Part shown: positions 9,795 to 17,893 of the stretch, piece by piece
Position numbering within the stretch: the stretch's first letter is position 1
How the letters are laid out: every line of letters begins with the position of its first letter
From: Armillaria gallica
Lineage: Eukaryota > Basidiomycota > Agaricomycetes > Agaricales > Physalacriaceae
Direction: 5' to 3'
NCBI GenBank assembly: GCA_037576215.1
Contig: JBANDB010000019.1
Span: 255,501-319,500 of the forward strand
Length of the DNA stretch: 64,000 bases
Translations under genes and position numbers: made by a program
Notes under the pieces: generated by a model
What the model saw: the letters and a program-made list of their open reading frames with translations, nothing else
What the model was told of the DNA's origin: nothing
Databases searched by the model: none

Positions 9795-9800
9795 AGCCTG

Positions 9801-10686
9801 TATGGGCGTAATAGCATCCAAAAAATTGGGTAGACGCAAGTGGACATTTTCCGGACACAAGTTGAGTAATCAAGCACCCAAGTTAACTTAGGCTTTCATC
9901 CTCCCACAAGTTAACTGATTTTCCAATTATTTCTATGAACACGGAATATGTACGTCAGGGACAATTGATACCGTAGTCTCATAGACGTCCGTGCGGGTCG
10001 CGAGAGGGATGAGGTGGTTGAACAGGCCGACATCATTTCGGTGGCTGCCATGAGCCTTGGCTTCATTGTTGTGGTGGATCGAACGCATTAAAATTTAAGC
10101 CTTGTATCTGTTGCCTTCACCGATTTCTTCATCGTCGTTTCATGCAATGGAGACTAACATCAGATTTCTCTGTCTTAGGCATTGAAAACGGTGGTTTGTT
10201 GCTCAGTAGCGGGTCCTGTTCAGAATTAAGGATATGTATGTCTTTTGTGCCATGATTTACTTCAAAACTGGCGTACATTTTGATATCATTCTGATAGTTA
10301 ATCAAGCATTCAAATGCTCTTCGAACCACCACAGATTAAGCTCAAAGAAGGCTCAACGAGAACGAGATTACAGATGGTTCAAGGCTTCATGATAAAGCCT
10401 ACTGAAAGGCATAGATACTAGGCTGTATCATTTCTCAGAACATTGGCATCGGTATCCTCTACGGAATCAAGGATTACATATCCAACCTCAGCAGGTATTA
10501 GCTGTCAGTGCGGAGATTCGCCTAAGTCACGGGTTTCTTATTTCGAAGCCGTAGGCAACAACGTCCTTCAAGTTTTGTGAAATGCCTCTTAACTTGAGGG
10601 AGGATGCAAGGGAACTTGCACACCAATAATTTACTTGTGCCCGAAGAAATACCACTTGCACGCATCGGAATTTTTGGATGCTATTA
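9801..10686. mobile_element. Non-autonomous relative abutting the core element
   Basis: This segment has its own inverted ends: TATGGGCGTAATAGCATCC at 9801 and GGATGCTATTA ending at 10686. Both are followed inward by an A/T run and by a GCAAGT/ACTTGC word. The right end lacks the final CGCCCATA and runs directly into the core left terminus at 10687. The segment has no target duplication of its own between 10686 and 10687. The simplest reading is a small non-autonomous element fused to a full-length one, the pair then moving as a unit. No coding sequence was found inside. Confidence 0.65.
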
Positions 10687-10712
10687 TATGGGCGTAATAC
10701 TGTCCGGAAAAT
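10687..10712 (+). repeat. Core left TIR (26 bp)
   Basis: Perfect 26-bp inverted match to 17303-17328. It starts TATGGGCGTAATACTGTCCG and continues GAAAAT. It matches the right terminus better than the outer left end at 9801 does (13 bp), so this is the original partner of the right end. Confidence 0.88.
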
Positions 10713-11179
10713 AAAGAAGGGACAAGCGCACATGCAAGATGGGATGCGGGATGCAATCAGGCACAAGTTAAGTGCATCATGATCCCCCAAAGCACACATG
10801 TGTCAACAACACGCATCTTGAAATGATCTTGCCACGTACTGTTATCACAAGTTATTTTCTCTCATGCACAAGTTCGTGCTCTATCCGCTCATGTACTCAA
10901 CTCTAAATTCACATTCACTCTCAAGTAGGGATGTTTCGATCATGATCGACACAAGATTGATCTGCCAGTGGATTTCATCACAAGTCAGGGACTTGACCCT
11001 TTTTGCACAAGTTTTATCCTCTCTTTCCAATACTCACAGGTTGACCTTATCCCATTTCTTTTGAAAAACATTGTTTCTCATTATTTGGTTCAGGGTAATG
11101 GGTAAACGGGTCCCCGTTTTGGAATTCCCTCTTTCTTCCCGTCTTTCTCCCGGAGCCTCGTCTTCCTCGGATCTCTACA

Positions 11180-14100
11180 ATGTTCAAGATACCTGCCGAG
11201 CGACTGGCGGGCTGCAATAAATGCGGTGTACTCTGTGGGCAGTTCTTCCCTCAACAAGACACTGTCGAGGTTACTGGTACTTCTGTTGGGCCCAATATTC
11301 AGTGCGCTATCTGTGGTTGCAAAGCTGGGACCCACATGGTAAGTATGACCCTCTCTGTGAAAATTTGAATCCTTAATATTGTCTGCTAGAAACATGGAGC
11401 CTCCGACACCACAAAGCAGGCCGACAGCACGACGGAAACACCTGGAGAAGACAAGGTATTATTGACTTTTAAAATCCTGTCACGTAGCATGCTCACCTAG
11501 TGTGGACCAGCCTTCGCATACCGCTTTCGAGAAGGATACGAAAAATACTGAGCGACCCCAGGTGTGTCTACGTATCTCTCTTCACTGCTTGGGTTTATGT
11601 AGGACTCCTCCCTAGTCATCCGGTCATCAAAACAAAGGTGGTCCATCTGCTACTTCAGCGTTGACAAAACGCCCATGGTCTGCTACTGAGTCGACAATGA
11701 ACGCCTCCCGCCCACAGCAGATGCCTAGAGCCCCTTCCAGTGGCATCGGACAGCCGCCCTTCCGTGATATGGCAGATAGGAGGAATGCACAGCATGAACA
11801 GAACATATCCACGAGTTTTGATCCTGCCATGGAGGTAAGTGATCTCCTTGACAACACGCTCATCCTTGATTGATGTCTTTCACGATGTAGGCATCAAAGA
11901 AGAAGTTTGCCGAAACGCTTGGACGCCCAACAAAGAAGAAGAAGATCAGCACAAAAACACCCTCGAGCGCATCGGCGACATCCACGGCAGCAAATTCAAA
12001 ACCGGCTGATACAAAGGAGGAGTGGAACGTTGGACTTGTTGAAGATACGGACGCCGTTTATAGAGAAAAGTACTCCAAACCTGACCGGGACAAGTATGTG
12101 ATCTTCATTGTGTCTGCTATGTTTTTCTTTACATCTATACACGTAGAGTTATGGCTCTATACCAACAACGGTACATACATGATGTGACGTTGTCCAGATC
12201 TGCGAGCGACTTTGAAATTCGGCAATCCATCAATGCTGTCTTCGCTGACCTTCAACCTCAACCGCTCACTTCATATGGGGAGTTCACCGTCCTCGTTGCC
12301 ATTGGTGCTGGCCAAGGAAGCAAAAGCTATCTCATGCCTCTCAGGCTTATCAACGGCGAGATGCTCACTATGCGAGATCTGGATATGTACAAACATATGT
12401 CTTTCACTTTTGCAATATCACTGATGGTCTTTCAGGGGGAAAAATAATGCTAAACCGCGTAATACAACATCTGATATGTTGAAGAAGCTCTTTTATATTG
12501 CGTTACCATGTGGAGAACCTAATCTTCCATTGAAGGTTATGAGTAAGAAGGCCAAGGAGAGCACCGATGTCGAGATGGACAATGGTGAAGATTATGAAGG
12601 CGACGATGAAGATCAGACTGTCCCGGGTGACGATACCCAAGTACGTTATCTCATATTGCTATGAGTATTCCTTGCTGATCCAGAGTTAGCCGGCCACGGC
12701 TGACAGCAAGATAGGGAGTGAAGCTCAGGTAAATGGTGCCAACAGTGTACTCACTATGCTTTTCTAACGTGGCAATTTTCCTTCGCCAAAGGGAGATGAA
12801 GGGCCAGGTGATGCTCAGGACCATCCTGCGCACCAAGATCAATCCACCGATGAGTATATTTTTAATACATACACAAACGTTTGTCTGATTTACTATCTTC
12901 TGACATTATACTCACATATTTTGAAGATTCCGCCACCAGGAAGGACCTCAGACGACGAACCTCCGACTCCACCCCCAGAGGAAGACTTTGGGTCCCTTCC
13001 ACCAGCTGATTACTTGGTCGCTACTCGCCTTGTCACATTCATGGCACGGCCAACTTCCGATCAATCCTGGGTAAGTGATTTCACGATGCGAGGCAGTATG
13101 TTAATGCCCATCATGACATTATAGTGGGTGTCGTCAAGCAAGAAGATTCATCCAACCTTTCAGAGTTTCACGCCGGAAGCTACCGGTCTTGTAGCATTCC
13201 TCACCGTAGTCCGAGCGGCGGGACCAAACATCTTCCCTCCAACATCCATTGCTGCGTTTCTTTCGCAGGCTTGGGAAAACAGTCCATTGAACACTGTATT
13301 CCCTCGCTTTGCCAACCTGTCGACGTGGACTGCAGCCGACGAATCAGAATTTGATGCGGTTTTTGCCCTGGGACCAGGAGCGTTTTCAGTTCTCACTCAG
13401 TTTCTCGCGAGTGTCTATGACGTTTTCTGTAAAGAGCTCATGTACATCTTTCCATGATATTTCGGTGTTTAATGCTTATGTATACGATTTGACAGTGATA
13501 TTCACGATCCGTCGGTCATTGCAGCTCGAAGGAAATATTATCACAGTGCGACGGACCTTCTGATTCTCGTGAAGAAAGTCAGGAGCAAATATGATCGCTC
13601 CTTGTGGGATCCAGCTGGCGGCTTCCGTGAACTAGCTGTGCTACTGCATAAAAACTCGCACCGACTGCCGGTTTGTTTGTTTCTACTCAAGGATGTTCTC
13701 ATAGTAACTCTTTCATTGAATAGGATGGCGACCCAAACAGTCGGATGTATCGAGAGCTTCAAAAGATCAATATGGGTACAATGTCAGTCGAACACGTCAA
13801 GTTCCACCTTCGTGATGCTTTTCATTCTGCGACGGAGCCGTCGGAGATGTACGAAGATGTTGTTTGTCTCGGTCCATTTGGGCTTGATGGGTTTTACTCC
13901 GACTGTGTCCAGTATATATTGGACGTCATGCCATGTTCAGATCCTCGCTTCGAGGGCATGTATGACCTCTTCATGGCAACAAGTAAGGCTCTAGGTCGCA
14001 AGGTCGCAAACTATCTGAAGAAGGCACGTATGCCATCTGCTACTGTTTCTTCTCCCTAATTAACAAAAATATGCAGCCAAACGCTCGGCGGAATGAAGAT

Positions 14101-15039
14101 GACGGTCATGGCAACCAGGTAGTCCACCGCATCAAATTTGAGTTTGCTTGGCATTGATGAAGATTTCTCAGGACCAAGAACCGCACTGCACACGATCATC
14201 GGGCACCCCGGGTCCAGGTCAAGCTCGCAATCCCAAGTATACTGCCTGATCCTTGTATGCAGTTTTCAAATAATAATATAATCCTTTGCTTCACCTATAG
14301 AACAGGAAAATGGTGAGTACCAACGGACTCAAGAGCTGATACTGATACCGCTGATGGTAATCTGGCTTTTCACTTCTGCGCGAAAGACTGATCTAGATAT
14401 ATATAGATATGACCAACTCAGACTCTTTAGCTTCAGACTGGCACAACGATGTCCAAGAAACTATGGATGACATCAAGACTCGTCGCTCCCGTAGACATCC
14501 TGTATCAGTCCATGATTCAGACTTGGAGCCGGAGAGAGCTGGTATGGTATCATTCTATGAGTTCCGGTGTTGGTATCTTCATTGATTATCAGGTCGTACT
14601 AACACAAAACCTCGACCGTCTACATCTTCCAAACCCCACCCAGAACCGGCAGCATCATCGGTGCCTAAGCCAAAACCACGGCCCCGTCCGATTCCAGTGG
14701 AGAGTGCCCGAGTCCGTAAGGCGCAAAGGCTTGTTGACGAAAAACTTCCACTTGAGGCTCTGATGACTCGCATACTTCATGATTGGCCCCATCCAAACCC
14801 CGAGAGACATCCGAAAATGAATAGTTGGAGTGCGCTGCCTCTCAAGAAAAAGGCACAGAAGTTGCAGCTGGTGAATATGGTTTCCATTATCTACGCTCTG
14901 CCGATAGCTTATGATCTCTGGGTTTATACCATAGGTTTACCACTACGATAAAAATGTCAAGGAGACGGAGGAATGGAGAAAGATTTCAGCTGCTCTTGCG
15001 ACAGCGCTAAATTTAGCTCTCAAATCGGCAAACCTGTAG
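11180..15039 (+). CDS. Second protein of the transposon, N-terminal Cys-rich finger, otherwise unknown
   Basis: Starts at ATG 11180. Thirteen exons join in phase through 14023 (735 codons): 11180-11338, 11390-11455, 11511-11561, 11616-11834, 11891-12093, 12147-12386, 12436-12640, 12690-12728, 12792-12878, 12927-13070, 13125-13441, 13496-13670, 13724-14023. Introns are about 48-68 bp and GT-AG. The next junction is ambiguous. A canonical donor after 14027 gives a stop a few codons later. A GC donor after 14023 allows tail exons with P/K-rich stretches, ending at TAG 15037-15039 (about 900 aa). Residues 12-51 carry CNKCGVLC and a later CAICGC then H, a likely zinc-binding unit. The middle is basic and Ser/Thr-rich, with an acidic patch near exon 7. 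I do not recognise the remainder. It lies 75 bp upstream of the transposase within the same termini. An accessory role in transposition, such as end or target binding, is inference only. Confidence 0.8.
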
Positions 15040-15114
15040 CCTCTTAGTAGATTTAATGAAATATATGTGATTGGCTAAGAATTAACGGTCTGATCTTTTG
15101 TTCTGACCACCATC

Positions 15115-16759
15115 ATGGAGTCGCATGGCCATAACCGTGATCCCGTTCACCATTTCCTCACGGAAAGCTATTCTATATGTACCCAGGCTCTATTCATCAT
15201 TGATTCGCTGCCGAATGCAGAGCTTGCTGCAGTGGAAAGGGTGGTTCATCAGCTGTATGCTGTTCGTACTATATTTCTTTCCCTCGACGATCTCCATCTC
15301 AATTCAGAGGATATCAATATCTCTGTTGATTACATCAACAATGTCCTGATGCCATTGCAAGACTTTCTTGATAACCCACCCCCACTGCCATCCAGCAGCA
15401 TTCCGCGACTTTATACAGGAAAGAAAGGCCGTCCTCGATATATTCTAGATCTGGAAAGATGCATCTTACTGCATGACCTCGGAAACAGCTGGGAGGCAGT
15501 AGCTGATGCACAAGGCATTGCCCGAAGTATTTTATATGAGCACATGAACCGTGCAGGATTGGTGACAGCACGACAGGCGCACACAGCCATCTCCGACAAC
15601 GATCTGGACGAGATTGTTGCCGAGATATCAATCTCTCATCCCTTCAGTGGATCCTCACCTCTCATGGGCCTTCTCGAATCAAGGGGCATTCATCTCCCTC
15701 GAAAACGAGTGCAGGATAGTCTGCGTCGAGTCGATGCCATTGGTGTACTTGTACGGTAAGCTTTCTTTATTTCTTCGCAATATTTCGGCTGAGTTTTCGC
15801 CAAAGGTGGTCAGGAATAATTAAACGTCGTGTGTACAAAGTGCGTGGGGCAAATGCACTTTGGCATAATGATGGTAACGAGAAGCTTCGTCCTTGGGGGT
15901 TCTGGGTACATGGCTGTGTCGACGGACACTCCAGACTGATTATATACCTCGAATGCTGTTCAAACAAACGCTCCGACACTGTTCGCACCTTATTCCTGCG
16001 TGCAGTCCGCATTTTTGGATGGCCAAGTCGTGGACGAGGGGATTATGGCAAAGAGAACAACAGAATGGAACGCGAGTTAATTCTTCATTGGGGTGAGGAA
16101 CATAGGGCCTATTTGCGAGGGCGGTAAGTATCTCAATCACTATCAATTTATTTTGAGTCTGATTGTGGGGAATCTTTAGCTCAACGCACAATGTACGAAT
16201 TGAAAGATTATGGGTGGATGTTCACAAGGACAGCCTCGAAACATTTCGCAAAATATTCACCTATCTGGAGGAGCAAAATCTACTGGACATGGAGAACTCG
16301 GTGCATCGAATATGCCTGTTTTTAGTGTTCCATCCACGTATCCAGGCCTCCCTCGATCGCACTCGTGATGCTTGGAACCATCATCAGCTGCGCACTGAGC
16401 ATTATAAAACACCCATCGCGATATACGAACTCAGTCGGGAGAAGGCTATTCGACGAGGGTACTGGACTGGTGATCCTGGCGACAATGCAGATCAGGTCCG
16501 CGGCGATCCTCTCTATGGCGTTGATGGGGACATTGAAGATGATTATCCATATGCACCACCAGAAACTCAGGAAGATCCAGCTGACACAGAGGTTAATTGT
16601 GAGGAAGACATCGACATGGCAAGGGAGATGATGGGAGATTTCGATTTTGAAAGAGATGACATGAACTGGGGGATTGAGGTATACTGTGAAGCAGTATCCA
16701 TCCTGACCGCTATCTTAGCTTCTGCAGCTGACAATGTAGATCACTCAGGCTCAGAGTGA
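15115..16759 (+). CDS. rve-type DDE transposase/integrase (IS3EU-like)
   Basis: Three exons, 15115-15755, 15806-16123 and 16180-16759, join in phase through two arginine codons and give 512 aa. Residues about 107-160 hold a helix-turn-helix-like segment (LERCILLHDLGNSWEAVADA, then SILYEHMNRAG). The catalytic core follows: WHNDGN supplies the first Asp, RGDYGKEN the second, and RIERLWVDV the Glu, with 34 residues between second Asp and Glu, spanning intron 2. That spacing and the NxRIERLW signature are typical of the rve/RNase H-fold integrases related to bacterial IS3 and found in fungi and animals. The C terminus (from about residue 420) is acidic. No frame break is seen, so the copy could be functional. 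It should cut and join the 26-bp termini of the surrounding element. The start ATG follows a 75-bp gap after the upstream gene, so both may share transcription or have a compact promoter. Confidence 0.9.
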
Positions 16760-17133
16760 TTTACTTAGTTTAATATATGTGGCGGTAAATGTGTTTCGAA
16801 ACTCGACAACCTTGAGATCTTGGATGAAATCTGGATAATATAACTATATGTTCATTGACTATGCTACAGAAAAGGGTTACTACATTACAGAGGATGCATA
16901 GAATATCATTGAAAAATACTTGCACCGACATTTTGAGGTGTTTAGCGAATGTTCAGGTAGGAGCATCATCGCTCAATCTGCGTGATGCGACCGCCTTCGC
17001 TTGCCGAAAGCCCGGCATTCCTGATATGGCTACACTGAATAATGCCGAAGGACAACTGGGATCGTACTCCTACTGGTGCGAAGTCAACTGTCCTAGTGCT
17101 TACTTGCGCACCTTCAATAGAGCTGTGCTATAC

Positions 17134-17290
17134 TTGTGTGGTAACCTCTGCTTATGTTCTCATCTTGTGCTGGATCTGAGGATCATTACTTGTGCATGAA
17201 ATCATTCTGCATCTCGACTTGCATGAATTTGTAATACAGAAGTAACTTGTGTAAGTCATCTATTTAAAAAAGTTGTGTTCCAAATACAGA
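17134..17290. repeat. Right subterminal ACTTGTG repeats
   Basis: At least five copies of ACTTGTG or one-mismatch variants lie between the transposase 3' side and the right TIR (near 17134, 17163, 17190, 17219 and 17245). The inverse word CACAAGT recurs near the left ends (about 9862, 9905, 10763, 10848, 10866, 10981, 11008). Such mirrored arrays are typical transposase-binding sites. Confidence 0.65.
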
Positions 17291-17302
17291 GGAATGAACT
17301 CT

Positions 17303-17328
17303 ATTTTCCGGACAGTATTACGCCCATA
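17303..17328 (-). repeat. Right TIR (26 bp) of the two-gene transposon
   Basis: Exact inverse of 10687-10712. It is followed directly by the AGCCTG target duplication (17329-17334), which matches the bases before 9801. Confidence 0.88.
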
Positions 17329-17893
17329 AGCCTGAGGGTGACATTCTTCAAGATGGTTTCGGCAGTGGCCTACGACTTTCGGAAGTTCGGAAAATTAGAA
17401 ATTCAAAGTACACACCTTTTTGACGTGGAAGCTGTGCTACGACAGTCTGGCCATATGTAACCGGTGCTAGAGCGCTTGGATAAGGTCCGGAGATACGGCT
17501 TGGCCTAGAGAGTCGGTAACCATGGCAGAAGAGAAAGACTTTCCGCCACTTTGTTCGGTCGGTCGGACTGGCTAGAGGCTGTGCTGGGCCAGCCAATCCA
17601 GTCTTCCAGTCTTCTCATTCCCAGCCCTGCCGATATGATCATCTCAAGATAAAGCTTCAAGATCAACAAGCATATATACTGTGGGGTAATACAGAAAGAA
17701 AGAAACAATGGAAGCGCACGATGCTCCACTACTCTTCAAAGTCAGCACCATCATTTTAATGATACACAAGATTCGTAGTACCTCACTTGGTTTCACACTC
17801 TATATTCTAATCATCGTCACTGCGCGCGAAGGTCGACTAACCCAGAAGAGCCGAATCTAGCTTTTATGCCGTTGTTGGTCTCCCTCGGTAAAT

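Follow-up and report, generated by a model that had tools for sequence, protein, structure and literature searches.

An IS3EU-like transposon nested in the terminal inverted repeat of a smaller relative in Armillaria gallica

What does a perfect 6-bp target-site duplication (TSD) enclose? The question is raised by a 64,000-nucleotide stretch of the Armillaria gallica genome (C19:255501-319500, contig JBANDB010000019.1; hereafter the window, whose own positions are given without a contig name), where AGCCTG stands directly outside both ends of a 7.5-kb segment, 9801-17328. The termini of this segment are inverted: the 13-bp tip TATGGGCGTAATA begins at 9801 and its complement ends at 17328. The original prediction read the segment as one intact, possibly active two-gene DNA transposon of the IS3EU type. 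The duplication and the inverted termini are present as it described them, but the segment consists of two elements. A 6.6-kb two-gene transposon, element B, lies within the right terminal inverted repeat (TIR) of a small non-autonomous relative, element A, at TIR positions 9-14. In the genome searched (86 Mb, 28 contigs), related elements repeatedly sit within the ends of their relatives, most often at these same TIR positions. Both the nesting of B in A and its recurrence among relatives are shown by the sequence; we consider probable the explanation as a whole, in which the transposase would be drawn to resident TIRs and the 14 bp missing from the window would have been lost by collapse.

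Two elements within one duplication

The features on which this description of the locus depends are the following.

9795-9800, no strand assigned: left 6-bp duplication AGCCTG, adjoining the left end of element A
9801-10686, no strand assigned: element A (host), a non-autonomous relative of 886 bp, right tip (8 bp) missing
10681-10686, plus strand: CTATTA (equivalent to TAATAG, TIR positions 9-14 of A), the target site of B and the sole remaining copy of its TSD
10687-17328, plus strand: element B, a two-gene IS3EU-like transposon of 6,642 bp, with a TIR pair and with ends common to short B-type elements
10687-10716, plus strand: left TIR of B, 97% over 30 nt against the right TIR
17299-17328, minus strand: right TIR of B, ending in 13 bp that match the A tip exactly and are not assignable to either element
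17329-17334, no strand assigned: right 6-bp duplication AGCCTG, adjoining the right end of element B

A repeat finder placed a second left end at 10687, inside the proposed 7.5-kb element. The inverted pair that this end forms with the right terminus (10687-10716 and 17299-17328) is 97% identical over 30 nt, against only 77% over 31 nt for the outer pair (9801-9831 and 17298-17328); the 26-bp TIR of the original prediction thus pairs the ends of two different elements. Element A has inverted arms of its own, 9809-9862 and 10633-10686, at 74% over 54 nt. Two A-type elements that possess both tips, C2:5819013-5819893 (881 bp, without a TSD) and C4:847907-848797 (891 bp), align to the A of the window from its first to its last base, at 77.6% and 76.4% respectively, and leave unmatched only their last 8 bp, CGCCCATA and CGCCTATA. 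Window A therefore lacks the final 8 bp at its right end, and B starts at precisely that point, directly after CTATTA. A further A-type copy (C19:1452681-1453520, 89.5%) has its right tip and lacks its first 8 bp. A second CTATTA was looked for beyond 17328 and is absent, and the TSD pair of B is thus incomplete at this locus. One 14-bp unit, composed of the second TSD copy and the last 8 bp of A, is missing, and AGCCTG brackets the composite of the two elements.

The window copy is the only full-length B found in the genome, with no second full-length copy that is nearly identical: the next-best match to its left end reaches 80% over 84 of 120 nt, and the next matches to the transposase DNA are partial, at 65-76%. 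Short B-type elements elsewhere keep both ends of B together with pieces of its 3' part. To call the transposon intact, as was originally proposed, is reasonable for the ends of B and for its two reading frames as modelled.

Insertions into the ends of relatives

The tip TATGGGCGTAATA occurs exactly 104 times in the genome, against two occurrences of a reversed control pattern; 100 of the 104 were listed, and the surroundings of some of them were examined. The stretches examined contain 147 tip-like matches with at most three mismatches. Of these, 113 were assigned to the types A, A2, B, C, C2 and D (93 of them with the exact tip), and the remaining 34 were set aside because they could not be typed or their flank was too short. 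The additional copies with 6-bp duplications that the original prediction suggested looking for are numerous: among 53 pairs of convergent ends no more than 9 kb apart, 29 have a TSD with at most one mismatch, exact in 27 of them, where chance would give 1.5; one of these rows, on C21, shares its left end with another. The pairs were chosen on 6 bp; compared at lengths of 4, 5, 7, 8 and 9 bp, they show at least two mismatches.

Thirteen insertions within the TIR of another element were resolved, nine of them at TIR positions 9-14, where the sequence is TAATAG or a variant of it. Seven guests have both flanks and their TSD inside the host TIR, and their joined flanks match host TIRs at 35-44 of 43-48 positions.

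C5:1419292-1420291: host TIR positions 9-14
C11:1161878-1162772: host TIR positions 9-14
C20:82606-83613: host TIR positions 9-14
C4:441570-443338: host TIR positions 22-27
C15:457041-457875: host TIR positions 34-39
C3:7233027-7234015: host TIR positions 3-8, with one TSD mismatch
C12:867191-886003: host TIR positions 31-36; interior only partly seen, ends joined by the shared CACCTA with host CATCTG outside

The six bases at TIR positions 9-14 are perfectly duplicated in three events. Six further events have no remainder of the host tip (the window, C21:414822, C4:847907-848797, C5:1171230-1172226, C10:2268833 and C19:1452680); the first five of these are composites, in which a single TSD joins the ends of two families, and three of the six (the window, C21 and C19) keep the hexamer unaltered. 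Guests, hosts and TSDs all differ, which argues for an independent origin of the events. The hosts at positions 9-14 are in all nine cases of A or C type, a mildly unusual result (0.013 by chance), given that 70 of the 113 ends belong to those types. By a hand count, 7 of the 15 B-type elements in the stretches examined are nested in TIRs (the window, C20:82606, C4:441570, C5:1171230, C5:1419292, C3:7233027 and C12:867191), the other eight being C15:456128, C3:7288087, one each on C7, C8 and C9, C16:111328, C16:48348 (one end seen) and C20:84483.

Target choice was also examined from the flanks. Homology to another element, reaching the junction, was detected with a library of 14 elements in 20 of the 113 typed flanks, which comprise 15 guest flanks inside a host (12 events), two flanks about 10 bp outside a neighbour (C21) and three in tip-overlap pairs. 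All 12 events found by flank homology lie at most 40 bp from the host tip and none is interior; the chance of 12/12 falling within the outer 40 bp of each end, for 850-bp hosts, is about 5e-13. The hosts of the window and C12 guests belonged to the library, so that those two rows are trivial, and the position of the C12 guest comes from its joined flanks. Of the 104 exact tips, 11 adjoin an exact TAATAG (6) or CTATTA (5), against 0.04 expected from the hexamer density of the window; some of the 11 represent both sides of a single event, and three (C9 and two on C21) are without a recognised host. The 28 tabulated sites, which include composites, comprise 23 that are not nested in TIRs; neither hexamer occurs at any of these 23, and they display a weak preference for CRNNYG, to which TAATAG does not conform.

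Several other arrangements were encountered. At C21:414126-418236 the elements of a chain are inserted no more than about 10 bp apart, with TGACAG and GAACCG duplications, and an extra TGACAG at the far end of the chain suggests a local duplication. At C19:1451882-1453520 two element ends overlap by a shared TA (CACCCATATGGGCG) and the right side of the guest lies in the TIR of a third element; no simple insertion order explains this arrangement. The tandem 14-bp tips at C21:223287 and C21:276984 have near-identical outside sequence, repeated in the first of them (C21:223287). Apparent very long B-type elements, with interiors only partly seen, are found at C12:867191-886003 (18.8 kb) and C20:84483-94242 (9.8 kb), as judged from B ends with the matching TSDs CACCTA and CAACTA; four open reading frames inside the C20 element gave no Pfam match at E ≤ 0.01.

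Origin of the nested pairs

The bias towards TIRs would be best explained by a transposase that is bound at, or recognises, resident ends. In the mechanism that we propose, an integrase-fold transposase performing a 6-bp staggered strand transfer would be drawn to resident TIRs, where the protein or its multimers may bind the same subterminal sequences as in its own element; through such shared binding, relatives would serve as landing pads. Motifs similar to ACAAGT, which are denser near the ends of B (five in the first 400 bp and five in the last 400 bp, against five in the 5,842 bp between), could be candidate binding sites. Insertion at TIR positions 9-14 would make a tandem of two 14-bp tips, a TATTACGCCCATA repeat, and collapse of this tandem would remove 14 bp in the window while the AGCCTG duplication of A stays around the pair. 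From such a tandem, either collapse or a later jump using the left end of A and the right end of B would yield the structure of the window.

The explanation originally proposed, a single 7.5-kb IS3EU element with imperfect TIRs, in which the tip at 10687 would be a repeat that is decayed or due to chance, is in our judgement highly improbable. AGCCTG does bracket 9801-17328 exactly, but of the two left TIRs the inner is the closer match to the right end, 9801-10686 is homologous over its full length to separate elements of 0.88-0.89 kb, 10687-17328 has both ends in common with short B-type elements, and no copies of the 9801-17328 layout appeared in genome searches. It was rejected on the internal left end and on the existence of separate A-type and B-type relatives. 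A composite move deserves more attention as a possible, if not probable, course of events. B would have nested in A elsewhere, and the left end of A with the right end of B would then have moved the 7.5-kb pair as a unit, making AGCCTG a fresh TSD; the 14 bp beyond B would have been left behind, so that collapse is unnecessary. The perfect AGCCTG pair agrees with such a move, as do four other composites in which ends of two families share one TSD (C21:414126-415605, TGACAG; C4:847907-849687, TAAACA; C5:1171230-1173038, TGGAA[CT], one mismatch; C10:2268833-2270900, CGATAA), and the shared 13-bp tips make mixed use of ends plausible. However, a search for the junction of CTATTA with the tip returned five exact places in which the host-guest pair or the side is different each time, so each composite is seen only once; a complete nest of A and B that could have served as donor was not found, and a local 14-bp collapse gives the same structure without an extra jump. 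We therefore slightly favour tandem collapse over the composite move.

Nesting might, alternatively, reflect a local preference for DNA sequence or shape (for example CG-TAATAG-CG), without any recognition of relatives by the transposase, an account that we regard as tentative but serious. It agrees with the use of the same TIR positions in 9 of the 13 events and with the lack of B- and D-type hosts there, but other TIR positions with unrelated hexamers are used too, and although about 31,000 TAATAG or CTATTA sites are expected in the genome from the density in the window, none of the 23 other sites used one. Differential survival is a much weaker candidate, and we think it very unlikely. The insertion of one transposable element into another is often neutral, and harmless insertions would be kept; yet survival should favour host interiors equally, and every one of the 12 guests found by flank homology is close to a host tip.

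Certain observations weigh against recruitment of the transposase to TIRs followed by collapse. A purely structural DNA preference would look like tethering by the transposase. No remainder of the host tip is left in six of the nine events at positions 9-14, so that collapse is inferred rather than seen, and the hexamer is altered in three of the six: four bases are gone at C4, C5:1171230 reads TTATGG, and C10, where the guest end was read by eye, reads TAATAA. The search for an empty site with the joined flanks of 9801-17328, another check suggested in the original prediction, recovered those two flanks alone and no unoccupied copy in this genome. Interior insertions in diverged host sequence may have escaped the flank scan with its 14-element library, and the tandem tips at C21:223287, C21:276984 and C9:96753, which have no recognisable host body, were left out of the event count. 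Finally, 10 of the 32 directly adjacent end pairs have no TSD, which implies that not every element is cleanly bounded. Four of the ten are the guests of composites, that of the window among them, and one belongs to the C21 chain; the other five, at C16, C2, C4 (two) and C8, are elements that look ordinary, the one at C2 being the copy used above as an intact A.

Genes, family and significance

Two genes were modelled in element B.

11180-15039, plus strand: gene 1 model, 964 aa, 18 exons and 17 introns (one GC-AG), with a Cys-rich N-terminus
15115-15755, 15806-16123 and 16180-16759 (exons), plus strand: transposase gene, 512 aa, D236/D293/E328

The 512-aa transposase of the original prediction exists, although it is uninterrupted only once two introns are spliced out, and the predicted D, D and E are found with 56 residues between D236 and D293 and 34 between D293 and E328 (DD34E). 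The suggested comparison with Pfam gave a clear match to rva_4 (4.6e-63) and one to rve at 0.0037, below the cut-off of that profile. A homologue with 61% identity, P0001, matches the NCBIfam profiles for IS481 (3.4e-13) and IS3 (4.7e-6), both below the cut-offs of the models, and has weak helix-turn-helix matches. The protein search gave 83 matches at E ≤ 0.001 among 7,995 candidates scored; those with a name are mostly from mushrooms (Agaricomycetes), a few animals appear further down the ranking, and many are unnamed. The predicted structure of P0001 (mean predicted local distance difference test score, pLDDT, 84.5) retrieved 40 PDB chains at E ≤ 0.001, mainly retroviral integrases, plus IS21 IstA and one TnsABCD complex, with TM-scores by query length of at most 0.30. 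In a PDB sequence search with the transposase alignment, resolvases came top (0.00027, N-terminal part) and the integrase of human T-cell leukaemia virus 2 followed at 0.02. The N-terminal HHCC zinc motif is absent, residues 1-225 having only two Cys, 22 and 116.

The second gene claimed for the element holds as a model, a long gene being readable over 11180-15039. The first automatic models of gene 1 ended early or ran on in the wrong frame and were replaced by a hand-set splice model, in which two features are choices rather than facts: a GC-AG intron at 14024-14076 and the decision to leave 12854-12926 unspliced. The model has no Pfam match at E ≤ 0.1, nor do its five homologues, from Desarmillaria tabescens, Armillaria solidipes, Mycena polygramma (two) and Daedaleopsis nitida, at E ≤ 1; an alignment search recovered just two of these five, and the predicted structure of one homologue, P0084, was too poor for a fold search (mean pLDDT 49.5). 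The C-terminus of a Mycena homologue (P0086) contains YHPDRN in a DnaJ-like context where the gene 1 of the window has YHYDKN (C-terminus, 14593-15039). A piece of the Mycena protein matched Pfam DnaJ at E 0.01, below the cut-off, and 12 of 14 sequences among the PDB matches listed for it are DnaJ-like, at E 0.12-1.6; neither the Armillaria piece nor the gene 1 model has a Pfam match. These resemblances hint at a weakly J-domain-like C-terminus in the homologue. On C16, in D-type copies, a gene 1 homologue (25-55% over pieces) is directly upstream of a transposase 52-73% identical to that of B, so that the two-gene layout is common to a second family of this genome, and on this basis we infer that gene 1 encodes an accessory transposition protein. 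The same contig holds a 17.1-kb near-perfect palindrome (C16:133444-150559) in which two D-type two-gene elements meet head to head (8,542 bp, 99.9%), with CTCTGG adjoining both outer ends; it could have arisen by insertion of an inverted dimer in one piece, or it could be an artefact of assembly.

The IS3EU-like assignment of the original prediction is borne out by the termini, TSDs and transposase profiles; together with the lack of HHCC, the sequences fit IS3EU/GingerRoot on the features tested. The ends TATGG...CCATA resemble the TA..TA ends, TAYGG..CCRTA in rust families, that are described in parts of two reports (PMC10045372; PMC12730594), the 6-bp TSD is seen here at family level in the 29 of 53 convergent pairs, and an IS3/IS481-related DDE transposase without HHCC is likewise described there (PMC10045372; PMC12730594). 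The same extracts document multi-gene fungal members (PMC10045372; PMC12730594). Among these, rust TET+ IS3EU elements have TIRs of >30 bp, compared with the 30 nt over which the TIRs of B pair, as far as paired, and they carry TET/JBP and alpha-kinase genes, whereas the sole modelled partner in B is an unrelated 964-aa protein; no TET/JBP or alpha-kinase family was among the Pfam results for the gene 1 model or its five homologues at the thresholds given above, for an element in which only two genes were modelled. IS481EU of parabasalids has a similar IS481-like transposase core and is not separated from IS3EU in the published tree, as far as the relevant part of that report goes, but its TSDs of about 4, 15 or 25 bp differ from the 6 bp found here (PMC10045372).

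Insertion directed at the ends of a resident element is described, in the pertinent part of one account, for bacterial IS911 and IS26, although there it occurs next to the resident insertion sequence or into the flank of its end, and here within the TIR with a 6-bp TSD (PMC7986276). According to a title cited in that account, OrfA of IS911 steers target choice (PMC7986276), and by analogy the partner gene of B may do so too. The Drosophila P element also lands in its own copies, but it belongs to another superfamily with an 8-bp TSD, and the example in the portion of the report at hand lies in an internal marker gene and not in a TIR (PMC4744444). Searches of the literature on IS3EU, nesting and self-insertion returned, among titles and abstract openings, no report of IS3EU nesting in TIRs, and the extracts of the IS3EU literature examined do not mention it (PMC10045372; PMC12730594).

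Target choice in IS3EU transposons is little described, and a recurring fixed site in the ends of relatives documents, in nature, the way in which an integrase-fold transposase chooses its DNA. For annotation, the locus is a warning that a perfect TSD can bracket two nested elements. We see an even prospect that the IS3EU elements of this fungus land preferentially in the ends of their relatives, most often at a hot spot comprising TIR positions 9-14, and that the resulting nests become two-family composites, fixed in place or mobilised as new elements. Nesting in TIRs connects the eukaryotic IS3EU elements to the end-targeting of bacterial insertion sequences, and offers a simple route by which transposon families could exchange ends and carry one another.

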